From NCBI RefSeq assembly GCF_016865445.1, contig NZ_AP024412.1, forward strand, positions 868,001-932,000: DNA of 64,000 nucleotides. The letters run 5' to 3'. The position numbers were made by a program, and so were the translations under genes. Of the stretch, positions 21,827-58,081 are shown piece by piece. How positions within the stretch are numbered: position 1 is the first letter of the stretch; the number at the start of each line of letters is the position of its first letter. Under the pieces are notes generated by a model. That model did no database searches and was not told where the DNA came from. It worked only from the letters and a program-made list of their open reading frames with translations. This stretch comes from Mariniplasma anaerobium (lineage in GTDB: Bacteria > Bacillota_I > Bacilli_A > Acholeplasmatales > Acholeplasmataceae).

Positions 21827-21835
21827 TTAGATGGT

Positions 21836-21922
21836 CACTACGGGGAGCTTAAATGCTGAGAGGACGAGTCATCGTCGACCCGAATAACCTGATCTGGATC
21901 ATACCAGCGGAGGGATAGTCGT
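21836..21922 (+). promoter_or_regulatory. TPP (THI-box) riboswitch
   Basis: Conserved TPP-aptamer sequences are present in order: CGGGGAGC (21841), GCTGAGAGGACGA (21855 onward), GACCCG, ACCTGATCTGGAT (21888 onward) and ACCAGCGGAGGGA. It lies directly upstream of a thiamine transporter gene, where TPP would repress. Confidence 0.97.
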
Positions 21923-21946
21923 TAAACGAATCAATCGAACTATCAT

Positions 21947-39145: not shown

Positions 39146-41323
39146 ATGACAGATCCTTTATTTGAATCCTTAGTAGAATCTTTCCAATCATATATTCATA
39201 ACCCAAAAGATATAGAGCTTATTAAAAAAGCTTATTTTTTGTCGAAGGAAAGTCACGAAGGTCAAATGCGTAAGAGTGGGGATCCATATATTACACACCC
39301 TGTTGCAGTTGCAAAAATTCTAGCAGAATTAACAGCTGGTCCAGCTACAATCATTGCTGCATTACTTCATGATACTGTTGAAGATACATCAGTAACACTA
39401 AAAGATGTTGAAAAAGATTATGGTCCTGAGATAGCAGCATTAGTAGATGGTGTAACTAAAATAGGTAAATTATCTTTTAATATCGTTGCTTCACAAGCAG
39501 AAAATCATCAAAAAATGTTATTAGCAATGGCTAAAGATATTAGAGTTATCTTAATAAAGATTGCTGATCGCCTACATAATGTAAGAACACTAAACTCTAT
39601 GTCTCCTGAAAAGCAATATAAAATAGCCAGTGAAACACTTGATATTTATGCACCACTTGCTCATAGACTTGGGATATTTAGAATAAAAGCTGAACTTGAA
39701 GATCGTTCACTAAGATATACTGATCCACCCATGTATTATAGAGTTTCAAATATGATTCAGACTAAAAAGACAGAACGAGAAGCTTCTATAGAACATGTAA
39801 TAGAACATATCAAAGAATTGTTTGTACATTCTAAATTAAAAGATTATGAAATTAAAGGTAGAATTAAAAATATATTTTCAATTTATAAAAAAATGGTTAG
39901 AGATAATAGAGCTTTTGAAGATATTTACGACCTATTAGCTGTTAGAATTATCGTTGATAAAGTTGAAACTTGTTATCAAGCTTTAGGCATTATTCATGCT
40001 AATTTTACGCCTATTCCTAGACGATTTAAAGACTATATCGCAGTACCTAAGCCAAATATGTATCAATCCCTTCATACGACTGTCTTATCAGAAGATGGGA
40101 CGTTATTTGAAGTTCAAATCCGAACAGAAGAAATGGATCATGTTGCAGAATTTGGGGTTGCTGCTCACTGGGCATATAAAGAAAATAAAACATATTCTAG
40201 AGAACGTGAGCAATTTGAAATTGCTCAAAAACTTAAATGGTATGGCGAATTAATGAAGATGACCGAAGATTCTGATGAAACTGAAGGTAGTGCTGAAGAG
40301 TTTGTTGGAACTGTTAAAGGTGATATTCTTGACGCCAATGTTTATGTGTTTACACCAAAAGGTGCAGTTATAGAATTACCTAAAGGTGCAACACCTATAG
40401 ATTTTGCTTATCGTATTCATACTGATATTGGTAATAAAATGGTTGGTGCAATTGTTAATAATAGAATTGTGACACTAGATTATGAACTAAATACTGGGGA
40501 TATTGTAAGTGTTAGAACTAATAAAAATTCATATGGTCCGAGTGAAGATTGGTTAAAAATAGCGAAATCTTCACATGCAAAACATAAAATTAAAGGTTTT
40601 TTAAATAAATTAAATAGAGATAATTTAATTCAATTAGGAAAAGAACAACTAGATCGAGAAATGCATGCACAAAAAGTTACACAAACACTTGATGATGCAT
40701 TTGTTAAAAAATTCTTTGAAAAGAATATGATTTCTGATGTTGAATCACTACATCTTGAAATTGGTAAAGGTATCATAAGTGCTAAAACTGTTGTTTCTAA
40801 AGCTTTAGGCAAAGAAGTTGATAAGGAAGAATTCTTACAACGTCAAATGGAAAAAGCTGCAAGACAATTAACAACACATAGTGAAACTGGTGTTGTTATC
40901 GAAGGTCTCTCTAGTCCACAAATAAAACTTGCAAATTGTTGTTTGCCTATTCCTGGTGATCAAATTATCGGTTTTGTAAGTAAAACAAGTGGTATTGTTA
41001 TTCATTCAACATTTTGTCCAAACTGTAATCAATTTGATGAAAATAGATTAATTGAAGCATTCTGGTCATCTGAAATCACAAGAAAATATCCTACAAGAAT
41101 TAAAATTATAGGAACAACAAAACCAACACTCTTAACTGAAGTCGTTACTGCAGTCAATGCACATTCGATATCGATTGCAGAAGTTAATGCTACGAATGGT
41201 TCTAATATGGAAATGGTTATTAAACTAAAAGTCTTAATTAACGATCAAAACACTTTACAATCACTTATGGTTAACTTAAGAAAGATTAGCGATATCTTTC
41301 AAGTAGAAAGAGATTTCAAATGA
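39146..41323 (+). CDS. relA: Bifunctional (p)ppGpp synthetase/hydrolase (RelA/SpoT homologue)
   Basis: Makes and degrades the alarmone (p)ppGpp. The 725-residue protein has an N-terminal HD hydrolase domain ('HEGQMRKSGDPYITHPVAVA', 'ALLHDTVEDT', 'KIADRLHNVRTL') and a synthetase domain with 'RFKDYIAVPKPNMYQSLHTTV' (about residue 290). A TGS domain near 'YVFTPKGAVIELPKGATPIDFAY' follows, then a zinc-finger region ('KLANCCLPIPGD', 'FCPNCNQF') and a C-terminal ACT domain. Both active sites look intact. The end overlaps dtd by four bases. Confidence 0.97.
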   Translation: MTDPLFESLVESFQSYIHNPKDIELIKKAYFLSKESHEGQMRKSGDPYITHPVAVAKILAELTAGPATIIAALLHDTVEDTSVTLKDVEKDYGPEIAALVDGVTKIGKLSFNIVASQAENHQKMLLAMAKDIRVILIKIADRLHNVRTLNSMSPEKQYKIASETLDIYAPLAHRLGIFRIKAELEDRSLRYTDPPMYYRVSNMIQTKKTEREASIEHVIEHIKELFVHSKLKDYEIKGRIKNIFSIYKKMVRDNRAFEDIYDLLAVRIIVDKVETCYQALGIIHANFTPIPRRFKDYIAVPKPNMYQSLHTTVLSEDGTLFEVQIRTEEMDHVAEFGVAAHWAYKENKTYSREREQFEIAQKLKWYGELMKMTEDSDETEGSAEEFVGTVKGDILDANVYVFTPKGAVIELPKGATPIDFAYRIHTDIGNKMVGAIVNNRIVTLDYELNTGDIVSVRTNKNSYGPSEDWLKIAKSSHAKHKIKGFLNKLNRDNLIQLGKEQLDREMHAQKVTQTLDDAFVKKFFEKNMISDVESLHLEIGKGIISAKTVVSKALGKEVDKEEFLQRQMEKAARQLTTHSETGVVIEGLSSPQIKLANCCLPIPGDQIIGFVSKTSGIVIHSTFCPNCNQFDENRLIEAFWSSEITRKYPTRIKIIGTTKPTLLTEVVTAVNAHSISIAEVNATNGSNMEMVIKLKVLINDQNTLQSLMVNLRKISDIFQVERDFK

Positions 41324-41757
41324 GAGTCATCGTTCAAAGAGTGAAGCAAGCTTCAGTCGAAGTGAAGCATAAAGAGGTTGCATCTATTTCTAAAGGATAT
41401 TTATTGTATATTGGATTAAGTGATACAGATAACGAAAAGATTGTTGAAAAAGTTGCAACTAAAGTTAAGAATTTAAGAATTTTTGAAGATGAACATCAAA
41501 AAATGAATTTAAGTTTAAAACAAGTTAATGGATCTATTTTAGCAGTTTCCCAATTTACATTATATGGTGATACAAAAGGTAATAATAGACCATCTTTCAT
41601 AAGAGCTGCTAGACCTGAAGTTGCAAAACCATTGTATGAATCATTTATTGCTCACTTAAAAGAAGAATTTGATGTTAAATCAGGCATTTTCCAAGAAGAT
41701 ATGGATATTTTGAGTGTAAATGATGGACCTGTAACGATTATCATTGAAATAGATTGA
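41320..41757 (+). CDS. dtd: D-aminoacyl-tRNA deacylase
   Basis: Removes D-amino acids (and glycine mischarged on tRNA-Ala) from tRNA. The 145-residue protein has 'MRVIVQRVKQASVEV', the catalytic motif 'SQFTLYGDTKGNNRPSF' and the cross-subunit 'NDGPVTIIIEI'. It is coupled to relA as in Bacillus (relA-dtd). Its function fits a cell that makes D-ornithine and D-alanine through the ornithine operon, although the gene is common anyway. The TGA stop overlaps the -35 of the hisS operon. Confidence 0.96.
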   Translation: MRVIVQRVKQASVEVKHKEVASISKGYLLYIGLSDTDNEKIVEKVATKVKNLRIFEDEHQKMNLSLKQVNGSILAVSQFTLYGDTKGNNRPSFIRAARPEVAKPLYESFIAHLKEEFDVKSGIFQEDMDILSVNDGPVTIIIEID

Positions 41758-41783
41758 CAATAAGACTATAAAAAAGATAAAAT
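41754..41783 (+). promoter_or_regulatory. Promoter of the hisS-aspS operon
   Basis: A perfect TTGACA (41754-41759, overlapping the dtd stop) and TAAAAT (41778-41783) are 18 bases apart. Transcription would start near 41790, only about 10 bases before the T-box Stem I. Confidence 0.7.
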
Positions 41784-41800
41784 AAGAGTATAAATAAATA

Positions 41801-41941
41801 GCCTGTGAAAAAGTGTATTTAAGTTATTAAATAGTGACACCTTTGGAGGCATTAGATATGAAAATGAGGGCTAGAAATTATTCTAGAACTAAGGTGGTAC
41901 CGCGATTATTCGTCCTTAGATTTTTTAAGGACGATTTTTTT
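41801..41941 (+). promoter_or_regulatory. Short T-box riboswitch leader of the hisS-aspS operon
   Basis: Stem I is closed by GCCT (41801-41804) and AGGC (41847-41850) and capped by TATTTAA/TTAAATA (41816-41822 and 41827-41833), about 50 nt in all, without room for the usual distal domain. The 3' side of the internal loop reads GTGACACC and holds GAC (Asp, 41836-41838) overlapping CAC (His, 41838-41840). Stem III is CTAGAA/TTCTAG (41871-41886). The T-box core ACTAAGGTGGTACCGCG (41888-41904) is followed by terminator CGTCCTTA/TAAGGACG (41911-41933) and a T run. Confidence 0.93.
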
Positions 41942-41964
41942 TAAATAGATGAGAGGATATTTTG

Positions 41965-42546
41965 ATGAAAAAGAAACCATTTAAACATATGCCTAAAGTA
42001 TTATTTGGTGAATATATGTTAAGAACACTTAAAACAAAAGATTATCGAGATTTATTTGAATATGGTAAGGATCCAGAGGTTACAAAATTTTTAAATTGGG
42101 GACCAATGGTTTTATCAATTGAAGCCAAAAGATCAATTAAAGAAATTTTCTATCCTAGAGTAAAAAATGGACTACCTGTAGGATATGCAATCATAGATAT
42201 CAATAAAAATAAAATGATAGGTACCGTTGATTTTCATTCAGTCATAAGTGATCAAAACACTGCAGAAATCGGATATGTTATTCATAAAGATTACTGGGGT
42301 AAAGGAATTATGACTCAAGCAGTAAAAGAACTTATAAAGCTTGGATTTACTTATCTAAACTATGATAAGATCATCATCAAGCATTTAAGTAAAAATATTG
42401 GAAGTCAAAGAGTCATTGAAAAATCAGGATTTAAATATATTAAAAAAGAACCATATACACTTAAAAAAATAAATTCAATTATCGAAGATGATATGTTGAT
42501 ATATGAAATAACCAAGGAGGATTATCATGGCAGCAAACAGAGTTAA
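41965..42546 (+). CDS. GNAT family N-acetyltransferase (RimJ/RimL-like)
   Basis: Acetyl-CoA-dependent acetyltransferase of 193 residues. The GNAT fold is seen in 'LRTLKTKDYRDLFEYGKDPEVTKFLNWGP', 'KMIGTVDFHSV' and the acetyl-CoA loop 'IGYVIHKDYWGKGIMTQAVKELIKLGF', then 'NIGSQRVIEKSGFKYI'. The substrate is unknown; relatives acetylate ribosomal protein N-termini. The ATG at 41965 with GAGAGGA upstream is preferred over a TTG three bases earlier. It is the first gene after the T-box and overlaps hisS by 20 bases, so its expression should follow tRNA charging. Confidence 0.88.
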   Translation: MKKKPFKHMPKVLFGEYMLRTLKTKDYRDLFEYGKDPEVTKFLNWGPMVLSIEAKRSIKEIFYPRVKNGLPVGYAIIDINKNKMIGTVDFHSVISDQNTAEIGYVIHKDYWGKGIMTQAVKELIKLGFTYLNYDKIIIKHLSKNIGSQRVIEKSGFKYIKKEPYTLKKINSIIEDDMLIYEITKEDYHGSKQS

Positions 42547-43795
42547 GGGTACATATGATGTACTTCCAAGTGAATCTTATAAATGGGTCGCTTTAGAAAC
42601 TAAGATTAGAGAGATTCTTAGTTTATATAACTTAAAAGAAATTAGAACTCCTATGATGGAGTATTCTAATGTTTTTCATAGAGATTCTGAAGGATCTGAC
42701 ATGGTAACAAAAGAAACATATGATTTTGTTGACAGATCTAATCGAGCATTAACCTTAAGACCAGAAGGTACTGCCGGCGTGATTAGAAGTTATGTAGAAA
42801 ATAAATTATATGCGTCTCAAGAATTAGAAAAAGTCTATTATATTGGACCTAATTTTAGATATGAAAGACCAGGGAAAGGTAGATATCGCCAATTTTCTCA
42901 ATTTGGTGTTGAAGCTATCGGAACAGTTGATCCAGCATTAGATGCTGAAATGATTATCCTTGCTTATGATTTTATTAAAAGATTAGGATTAAAAGGTGTT
43001 AAGGTAAGAGTTAATACACTTGGAGATCAAGAATCAAGAGATAGATATCAAGAAGCTTTAGTTAAGCACTTCACACCACATATTCATGAGTTATGTGAGG
43101 ATTGTAAAAATCGTATTGATAAAAATCCTTTGCGTATATTAGACTGTAAAATTGATTATAAACATGAATCAGTCATTAATGCACCAACGCCTCTAGATTT
43201 ATTAAATGATGCATCACGTGCTTACTTTGATGAAGTCAAGAGTCACTTAGAAATGTGTGGTATAGATTATGTGATCGCACCTAAATTAGTTAGAGGACTT
43301 GACTATTATAGTCACACCGTATTTGAAATAGAAGCCGATATAAAAGGCTTTGGAGCTGCTAATGTACTTGGTGGTGGTGGAAGATACCAAAAATTAGTTT
43401 CTGAGCTTGGAGGGCCTGATTTAGGCGGTATAGGCTTTGCATTTGGTATGGAAAGATTGTTAATGGCATTAGAGGCTAATCACATTGAACTTAATGAAGA
43501 TGTTGAAGTTGATTGTTTTGTCATTACTTTTAGTAAAGAGTTAAAAAAAATAGGAACTAAAATTTTATATGATCTTAGACAAGAAAATTTTGTTTCAGAT
43601 ATGAACTATACAGCTAAATCTTTTAAAGGACAACTTAAACAAGCATTAAGATTTAATTCCAAGTATTTAATTATTCTTGGTGATGAAGAATATGCTAGAG
43701 GTGTAGTCGGTATTAAAGATACAAAAACTGAAATTCAAGAAGAAATTAAAATAGAAAATATCACTGCATATATAAAGAAAAAGATGGAGAAATAA
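42527..43795 (+). CDS. hisS: Histidyl-tRNA synthetase
   Basis: Class II synthetase charging tRNA-His. The 422-residue protein has motif 1 region 'IRTPMMEYSNVFHRDSEGSDMVTKETYDFVD', motif 2 'YIGPNFRYERPGKGRYRQFSQFGVEAIG', the histidine-binding 'LVRGLDYYSHTVFEI' and motif 3 'GGIGFAFGMERLLMAL', then an anticodon-binding domain. AAGGAGG lies before the ATG, inside the GNAT gene. It is followed one base later by aspS. Confidence 0.98.
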   Translation: MAANRVKGTYDVLPSESYKWVALETKIREILSLYNLKEIRTPMMEYSNVFHRDSEGSDMVTKETYDFVDRSNRALTLRPEGTAGVIRSYVENKLYASQELEKVYYIGPNFRYERPGKGRYRQFSQFGVEAIGTVDPALDAEMIILAYDFIKRLGLKGVKVRVNTLGDQESRDRYQEALVKHFTPHIHELCEDCKNRIDKNPLRILDCKIDYKHESVINAPTPLDLLNDASRAYFDEVKSHLEMCGIDYVIAPKLVRGLDYYSHTVFEIEADIKGFGAANVLGGGGRYQKLVSELGGPDLGGIGFAFGMERLLMALEANHIELNEDVEVDCFVITFSKELKKIGTKILYDLRQENFVSDMNYTAKSFKGQLKQALRFNSKYLIILGDEEYARGVVGIKDTKTEIQEEIKIENITAYIKKKMEK

Positions 43796-43796
43796 A

Positions 43797-45512
43797 ATGA
43801 AATATACACATAATAATAATGAACTAAATATATCAAATGTTTTACAAGAAGTTTTCTTAAAAGGTTGGGTTCAAAAATCTAGAAACTTAGGTGGACTTAT
43901 CTTTATCGATTTAAGAGATCGTTTTGGAGTTACACAATTAATGGTTAAACCTGATAATGCTTTTTATGAAGTTGCTTTAAAGATTAGAAGTGAATTTGTC
44001 ATAGAAGTTAAAGGTATCGTTGTTGAGCGTGAAAGTAAGAACTCAGGCATGTCTACAGGGCAAATAGAAATTGATGTTAAAGAACTAACTGTCTTAAGTG
44101 CAGCTGAAACACCTCCAATTACTGTATCTGATGATACAGATGCTTTAGAAGAAACGAGATTAAAATATCGTTATCTTGATTTAAGAAGACCAGTCATGCA
44201 AAACTTTTTAATTCAAAGACATAAAATTACTCAATCCATCCGTAGCGTTTTAGTTAAGGAAGGCTTTTATGAGTTAGATACACCTATATTAGGGAAATCA
44301 ACTCCTGAGGGAGCACGTGACTATTTAGTGCCTTCTAGACTATATGCAGGTCACTTTTATGCACTTCCTCAATCTCCTCAAATCTATAAACAATTATTTA
44401 TGGTAGCTGGGTTTGAAAAATACTTCCAAATGGCTAAATGCTTTAGAGATGAAGATTTAAGAGCTGATCGTCAACCTGAGTTTACTCAAGTTGATATCGA
44501 AGCATCTTTTATCGATGAAGAAGATATACAAGGTTTAATTGAACGTATCATGAAACACACATTTAAAGAAGTATTAGATGTGGATGTGAACATACCATTT
44601 TTAAAGATGAGCTATAAAGAAGCAATGGAAAAATATGGTACTGATAAACCAGATATGCGCTATGAATTACTAATTAATGAATATAAAGATGCATTTAAAG
44701 CCATTGATATTCCATTGTTTAATGAAAAAGCCTTTGTTAAGGGCATCTTATTAGAAAAAGGTGCAAGTTTAACTAGAAAGCAAATTGATAAATTACAAGA
44801 TTTAGTTAAAAAGAATCATGGAGATGCACTTGTATTTATTAAAAATCAAGAAGGTGTATATTCAGGAAGTATCAATAAATTTATGAGTCCAGAAAATTAT
44901 CAATCTTTAAACTTAAAAGATCAAGATATTTTATTTTTAGTTCCTGGGAATGATGAACAAGCATTAAATGCACTTGGAGCTTTAAGAATAGAATTGGCAA
45001 AAACTTTTAATTTAATTGATGAAAATGTCTATAAATTCTTATGGGTTACTCAATGGCCATTATTAGAATATGATGAAGATGAAAAACGTTTTTATGCAAA
45101 ACATCATCCATTTACAGCACCAAGTGATGCAAGTCAATTAAAAACTAATCCAAAAGAAGCGATGGCTAAAGCTTATGACATCGTTTTAAATGGTTATGAA
45201 ATTGGTGGTGGATCGATTCGTATCCATAATCAAGAAGTACAGAAATTAATGTTTGAAACACTAGGGTTATCAGATCAAGAAGTTAAACATCGTTTTGGAT
45301 TCTTTGTAGATGCTCTAAAATATGGTACACCACCACATGGAGGTCTAGCTCTAGGACTTGATCGTATTGTTATGCTTATGACGCATACGGCTAATATTAA
45401 AGATGTTATCGCGTTTCCTAAGACACAAAGTGCGAAAGATCAAATGATGCAAGCACCAAGTGATGTGGATCAAGTTCAACTTGATGAATTACATTTAAAG
45501 ATTGGAGAATAA
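43797..45512 (+). CDS. aspS: Aspartyl-tRNA synthetase
   Basis: Class II synthetase charging tRNA-Asp. The 571-residue protein is the bacterial type: an N-terminal OB anticodon domain ('FLKGWVQKSRNLGGLIFIDLRDRFGVTQLM'), then 'RYLDLRRPVMQ', motif 2 'AKCFRDEDLRADRQPEFTQVDIE', the inserted GAD domain, and motif 3 'GGLALGLDRIVMLM'. It shares the hisS operon and T-box leader. A GGAG site lies in the end of hisS. Confidence 0.98.
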   Translation: MKYTHNNNELNISNVLQEVFLKGWVQKSRNLGGLIFIDLRDRFGVTQLMVKPDNAFYEVALKIRSEFVIEVKGIVVERESKNSGMSTGQIEIDVKELTVLSAAETPPITVSDDTDALEETRLKYRYLDLRRPVMQNFLIQRHKITQSIRSVLVKEGFYELDTPILGKSTPEGARDYLVPSRLYAGHFYALPQSPQIYKQLFMVAGFEKYFQMAKCFRDEDLRADRQPEFTQVDIEASFIDEEDIQGLIERIMKHTFKEVLDVDVNIPFLKMSYKEAMEKYGTDKPDMRYELLINEYKDAFKAIDIPLFNEKAFVKGILLEKGASLTRKQIDKLQDLVKKNHGDALVFIKNQEGVYSGSINKFMSPENYQSLNLKDQDILFLVPGNDEQALNALGALRIELAKTFNLIDENVYKFLWVTQWPLLEYDEDEKRFYAKHHPFTAPSDASQLKTNPKEAMAKAYDIVLNGYEIGGGSIRIHNQEVQKLMFETLGLSDQEVKHRFGFFVDALKYGTPPHGGLALGLDRIVMLMTHTANIKDVIAFPKTQSAKDQMMQAPSDVDQVQLDELHLKIGE

Positions 45513-57726: not shown

Positions 57727-58081
57727 GAGTCAATGGAAGGTGACCAAGCTTATACTTGTATAGGTTAGGAAAGTCCATGCTAGCACATTCTGAAATGAAT
57801 GTAGTGTTTGTGCCTAAGGAAACAATAACTTAGGGTACATCTTAGCGATGTAACGGCGTCAAATGATCTAAGGCTTATGCTATGATCTATGACCAAACGT
57901 GCCACAGAAACGAGATACTTAGAAATAAGTATATGAAACGCGGTAAACCCCTCAAGCTAGAAACCCAAATTTTGGTAGGGGAACGTAAAATAGCGAAACA
58001 AAGCTAAATTACGCTACTTATGTAGAGATAAATGGTCACACCCTTTAGGGATACAGAACATGGCTTATGCACATTGACTTA
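57727..58081 (+). ncRNA. rnpB: RNase P RNA (B-type)
   Basis: Catalytic RNA that matures the 5' ends of tRNAs. Conserved segments occur in order: GGAAAGTCCATGC (57768 onward), GCCACAGAAACGAGATAC (57901 onward), GAAACGCGGTAAACCCCTC and ACAGAACATGGCTTATG (58052 onward). Helix P1 is AGTCAATG (57728-57735) with CATTGACT (58072-58079), which sets the ends. The overall size and the ACAGAACATGGCTTAT ending fit the Bacillus type. TGATAAAAT (57712-57720) is a possible extended -10. A strong terminator follows. Confidence 0.96.

Follow-up and report, generated by a model that had tools for sequence, protein, structure and literature searches.

In the scheme published in 2023, T-boxes fall into four classes, all of which carry an elbow-binding tip on Stem I, a Stem II, or both, and tRNA binding is described as being augmented by the Stem I tip, by the Stem II S-turn, or by the two together (PMC10482949). 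According to PMC7583486, transcriptional T-boxes generally require the elbow-binding tip, whose double T-loop carries the motifs AGAGA and UGxRA and which current models hold to be needed for speed in such T-boxes, while short-stem T-boxes without a tip are reported to need Stem II (PMC7583486, PMC10482949). With respect to the genes controlled, hisS-aspS T-boxes with a GACAC specifier loop are known from bacilli and lactobacilli and have been attributed mainly to tRNA-Asp (Gutierrez-Preciado 2009, cited in PMC5313534). A T-box able to read two codons has been described in Clostridium acetobutylicum (Saad 2013, cited in PMC4919913; also PMC7778990).

The leader described here comes from Mariniplasma anaerobium (family f1, probably Acholeplasmataceae; genome size 1.9 Mb), within a stretch of 64,000 nucleotides of contig NZ_AP024412.1 that was analysed as a whole (henceforth the window). 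It shares with the bacilli and lactobacilli examples the operon genes, the GACAC loop and the main assignment to tRNA-Asp, and differs from them in its truncated Stem I, a feature that the literature covered does not report for them. The layout of the locus is given in the table. Its promoter matches 11 of 12 consensus bases, and dtd, the gene just upstream, has its stop codon inside the -35 box. Between the leader and hisS lies a GNAT acetyltransferase gene, which has to be added to the genes listed in the original prediction. Most relatives likewise have about 600 bases between T-box and hisS, which fits retention of the GNAT gene at that place. Elsewhere in the window there are a TPP riboswitch (21831-21932) and a class B RNase P RNA (57732-58072), both ordinary.

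Features of the hisS-aspS leader and its surroundings (window coordinates)
Feature	Position	Strand	Details
dtd gene	41320-41757		upstream of leader
Promoter	41754-41783	+	-35 TTGACA 41754-41759; 18-nt spacer; -10 TAAAAT 41778-41783; putative start near 41790
Stem I	41801-41850	+	50 nt
P1 of Stem I	41801-41803 with 41848-41850		GCC/GGC
K-turn of Stem I	41804-41808 with 41846-41847		UGU bulge 41804-41806; tandem G.A 41807-41808/41846-41847
P2 of Stem I	41810-41813 with 41841-41844		AAAG/CUUU
Cap helix of Stem I	41816-41822 with 41827-41833		7 bp, plain, GUUA loop
Specifier loop core GUGACA	41834-41839	+	loop reads GUGACAC; 3' side of Stem I
Asp specifier GAC	41836-41838		conserved purine A 41839; GACAC 41836-41840
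Overlapping CAC	41838-41840
Linker	41851-41870	+	20 nt, single-stranded; usual place of Stem II and IIA/B pseudoknot
Stem III	41871-41886	+	CUAGAA/UUCUAG
Antiterminator	41889-41919	+	T-box bulge UGGU 41895-41898
Intrinsic terminator	41910-41942	+	stem 41910-41934; 8 U; mutually exclusive with antiterminator
GNAT acetyltransferase gene	41965-42546	+	PF13302 E 8e-30; first gene of operon
hisS	42527-43795	+	PF13393 E 3e-38
aspS	43797-45512	+	PF00152 E 2e-123

The original prediction for this place was a T-box that joins a minimal Stem I to a transcription-terminator platform, and its parts are all present: the 50-nt Stem I, an intact core and an intrinsic terminator (0.2 expected in shuffled sequences). 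As in members of Rfam family RF00230, the GAC specifier fits the downstream aspS, and a UGGN bulge, an antiterminator and an alternative terminator can be recognized. The match to RF00230 (41785-41920; 46.2 bits, E 3.5e-9) is the lowest of the 12 T-boxes in the genome, the other 11 scoring between 84 and 149 bits, and amounts to half of the gathering score of 93, which is a curation cut-off and not a biological feature. None of 20 short loci passes that score and only one of 20 full-length hisS loci of the clade does, so the sub-threshold value reflects the model rather than the absence of a T-box. Judged by its sequence, the stretch 41801-41942 is confirmed as a real transcription-attenuation T-box ahead of GNAT, hisS and aspS.

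The simple seven-pair cap predicted in place of the distal elbow-binding domain was found as described, and the double T-loop motifs (AGAGA, UGxRA) are absent from Stem I of the window leader. The case for a minimal T-box is stronger than first put forward, given that Stem II and IIA/B are missing as well; where they usually stand there is the single-stranded linker, with a GAGGG purine run at its end, just before Stem III. The combination does not correspond to any of the published classes. Class I has a long Stem I with a distal double T-loop plus Stem II, against a plain cap and a mere 20-nt linker here. Class II, exemplified by Bacillus subtilis glyQS (PMC10482949), shares the transcriptional output, the K-turn, the single-stranded linker in place of Stem II, Stem III and the antiterminator/terminator pair, but glyQS has a long Stem I with a double T-loop and reads Gly, whereas the window leader has a tipless Stem I of half that length and an Asp specifier. 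Classes IV and III (Actinomyces, Nocardia ileS; PMC10482949) resemble it in having a Stem I without an elbow-binding tip, with the specifier in a side bulge in class IV as in the window leader, and in an apical loop in class III as in two relatives (L089 and L116, see below). Their Stem I is short or intermediate in length, they carry Stem II, which class III needs, and they are mostly translational, whereas the window leader has an intrinsic terminator and no Stem II. With neither tip nor Stem II in its predicted fold, the leader is thus outside the four classes listed in the open-licence papers that make up the literature covered. As a separate observation, T-boxes with a long Stem I and no Stem II precede ileS, tyrS, trpS, metG, alaS, valS and pheS in f1 (L010, L011, L213, L214, L217, L218, L227, L240, L243, L255); the class of that build is described as glycine-specific in PMC10482949.

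Of 101 genomes, 99 had a hisS gene that could be located. The upstream DNA was inspected for nearly all of them, and 73 hisS T-boxes were classified as short (33, without the distal tip) or full-length (40, with it). The short form is present in nine genera of f1. Full-length forms occur in f5 as well as in genera g12 and g15 and some of the g3 genomes. On a HisRS tree of 49 genomes the truncation changes at least six times. Stem I measures 36–59 nt across 26 short leaders; L232, which is counted among the 33, is intermediate in length and has a long plain helix. In L089 (G016) and L116 (G009), which have no Stem II, Stem I is a hairpin of about 36–40 nt whose apical loop holds the specifier, and it may be the smallest of any transcriptional T-box; L089 is without any cap and L116 is able to present CUGUGACA in an 8-nt hairpin loop. 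Stem II was not seen in the hisS leaders of f1 or f5, where the specifier stands 26–34 nt from Stem III. In the hisS leaders of f3 Stem I is full, and ahead of Stem III an insert of about 25 nt carries a conserved CGTACCAGGCGTTAACGG-like IIA/B stretch.

Covariation among the relatives supports the base pairs of the short form. In the 26 short leaders 90.2% of the cells were paired, compared to 38–54% in slid controls with the partners moved by 1–3 columns, and changes on both sides were counted in 16 of 29 pairs, where shuffling gave 8.4 and none of 500 shuffles reached as high. The tandem G.A of the K-turn is present in all 26, the third K-turn position varying (A.G, U.U and other mismatches), and P2 shows compensatory changes, with AAAGG/CCUUU in most leaders, UUAGG/CCUAA in L021 and CGAGG/CCUCU in L032. 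The cap varies in sequence in almost every genus and, with the exception of L089, keeps its pairing; its low value in the column count (56%) arises because the register moves by 1–2 bases between sequences, and 3–8 pairs are found when each sequence is measured by itself. All five Stem III pairs show changes on both sides across the relatives, and the antiterminator is 98–99% paired in 25 sequences.

The promoter follows the length of Stem I. A promoter-like sequence was found in 32 of the 33 short leaders, its -10 box lying 85–115 nt ahead of the T-box core (L232: 131), while in the 23 of 40 full-length leaders where a promoter was found the -10 box is 143–168 nt from the core, a displacement of about 45 nt with ranges that do not overlap. 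By these positions the putative promoter has moved together with the deletion in Stem I, which agrees with the original argument that a start near 41790 leaves no space for a longer arm. A longer leader hidden upstream, which would make the short Stem I a misreading, was rejected on this shift of the promoter.

We consider it highly probable that the leader is a tRNA-Asp-responsive, transcription-attenuating T-box controlling the GNAT-hisS-aspS operon. Uncharged tRNA-Asp would pair through its GUC anticodon with the GAC of the 50-nt Stem I, and the basal K-turn of Stem I would fold the remainder of the leader back, allowing the 3' end of the tRNA to pair with the UGGU bulge. That pairing would hold the antiterminator and let RNA polymerase pass into the three genes, while charged tRNA-Asp could not pair with UGGU and the terminator would form. 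GAC is kept in 72 of the 73 hisS leaders and is followed by a purine in all of them; the bulge is only ever UGGU or UGGC, both of which suit G73 of tRNA-Asp (by wobble and by Watson-Crick pairing, respectively). The sole loss of GAC is in L033 (G012), a leader with full Stem I that reads GUGGCAC for GUGACAC and retains CAC; its GGC could pair with GUC by a middle G.U or read another tRNA.

How a leader lacking both affinity modules might hold its tRNA is suggested by the two bases ahead of the specifier. GU precedes GAC in all 33 short leaders and in 6 of 40 full-length ones, and it is the only new conserved feature of the short form (Fisher p 5e-15 for association with truncation, a value that ignores shared ancestry). 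On the HisRS tree of 49 genomes U-1 changes five times, and a tree-based test of U-1 against truncation, with at most two supported independent pairs differing in both traits, had no power. The resulting GUGACA complements U33-G34-U35-C36-A37-C38 of tRNA-Asp at every base (the anticodon loop of this tRNA reads CUGUCAC in each of the 17 genes parsed), and the computed duplex is worth -7.3 kcal/mol in the GU form vs -4.2 in the GG form. In glyQS it was shown not to matter whether the 3' purine pairs with U33 (cited in PMC7583486), and so the realistic gain is U-1:A37 and G-2:C38.

Two readings of this element have to be weighed. GU may be kept for the structure of the shortened specifier loop and not for pairing with A37 and C38, a reading to which we give only just short of an even chance: some ileS and tyrS leaders of full length have U-1 as well, and the invariant tRNA-Asp loop leaves co-variation no signal to compare. 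Against it, G-2 fits C38 of tRNA-Asp whereas ileS leaders (tRNA A38) have mostly A at -2, and L089 and L116 retain GUGACA even though an apical loop offers the element another structural setting. The other reading, that the extended GUGACA pairing partly offsets the missing elbow contact and Stem II, we hold more tentatively, at somewhat below even. Because GU is already found in some full-length leaders, it may predate the truncation, permitting the loss rather than trailing it. Equally tentative is the suggestion that these leaders may make up a fifth T-box architecture, transcriptional, without tip or Stem II, in which GUGACA pairs with 5–6 anticodon-loop bases in a kissing-loop-like manner, from a simple hairpin loop in L089 and L116.

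In view of the published need for a tip or Stem II (PMC7583486, PMC10482949), the leader could be weak or need a helper. Alternatively, it could be a decaying T-box that has lost its tRNA-binding tip and serves for the most part as a weak constitutive terminator. Neither of the known affinity modules is indeed present, full and short forms alternate within genus g3, and the small genomes of genus g8 yield no T-box match. Drift would not, however, produce the conservation seen: nine genera have maintained the specifier, K-turn, P1, P2, Stem III, UGGN and antiterminator through compensatory changes, and the promoter distance is preserved. We regard decay as improbable.

Of the original proposal that GAC (Asp) and CAC (His) overlap in GACAC and match both synthetases downstream, the overlap itself stands and the dual specificity is not supported. 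A T-box in which either tRNA-Asp or tRNA-His relieves termination would suit the presence of both aspS and hisS, GACAC is found in most of the 73 relatives, and the Clostridium T-box (cited in PMC4919913 and PMC7778990) is a precedent for reading two codons. An unconserved second codon in relatives had been named beforehand as evidence against such a reading, and this is what was found for His: CAC is kept in 57 of the 73 leaders and lost in 16 (GACAA in 13, GACGC in two, GACAG in one) with hisS still downstream, including L016, which has GACAA, and L017, both from the same genus as the window, and it changes eight times on the HisRS tree, unlike what would be expected of a two-codon T-box with both codons conserved. 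In T-boxes without Stem II the purine just 3' of the specifier, which stacks beneath the helix of codon and anticodon, is described as critical (PMC7583486); GAC has one and CAC does not, the next base being C or T in 56 of 57 leaders. That the bulge is never UGGG is a weaker point, since the discriminator of tRNA-His (C73) is paired, TBDB exempting this tRNA from the discriminator rule, and the UGGN form therefore says little about it. Conservation, the stacking purine and the published view of GACAC as mainly a tRNA-Asp signal (PMC5313534) together led us to reject dual reading, which is very unlikely. Probably only one of the two overlapping codons is read, and the leader is most likely tRNA-Asp-specific, a minor response to tRNA-His besides being conceivable.

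In line with the covariance search suggested along with the original prediction, a covariance model of the short form was run on 160 genomes from the order and 392 from the phylum. Its top matches were only at hisS in f1, and no other short leader was present among the matches inspected in these genomes, the order-level matches in G091 and G150 (75–77 bits) being left out. The high-scoring matches inspected away from hisS were rejected as short T-boxes, all having a full Stem I (metG L213; tyrS L214, L217, L266 and L267; ileS L215 and L220; alaS L216; trpS L218).

What appears new here, set against the open-licence literature, is a transcriptional T-box without tip and without Stem II, the two overlapping codons of GACAC having been known already. 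Standard Rfam thresholds miss this group of short hisS T-boxes. Together with their full-length relatives they form a natural deletion series at a single operon, going from a full Stem I with the insert, through a full Stem I without Stem II and the 50-nt form, to a bare hairpin, with T-box cores that are nearly identical throughout, and this series makes the minimal requirement of a T-box directly testable.
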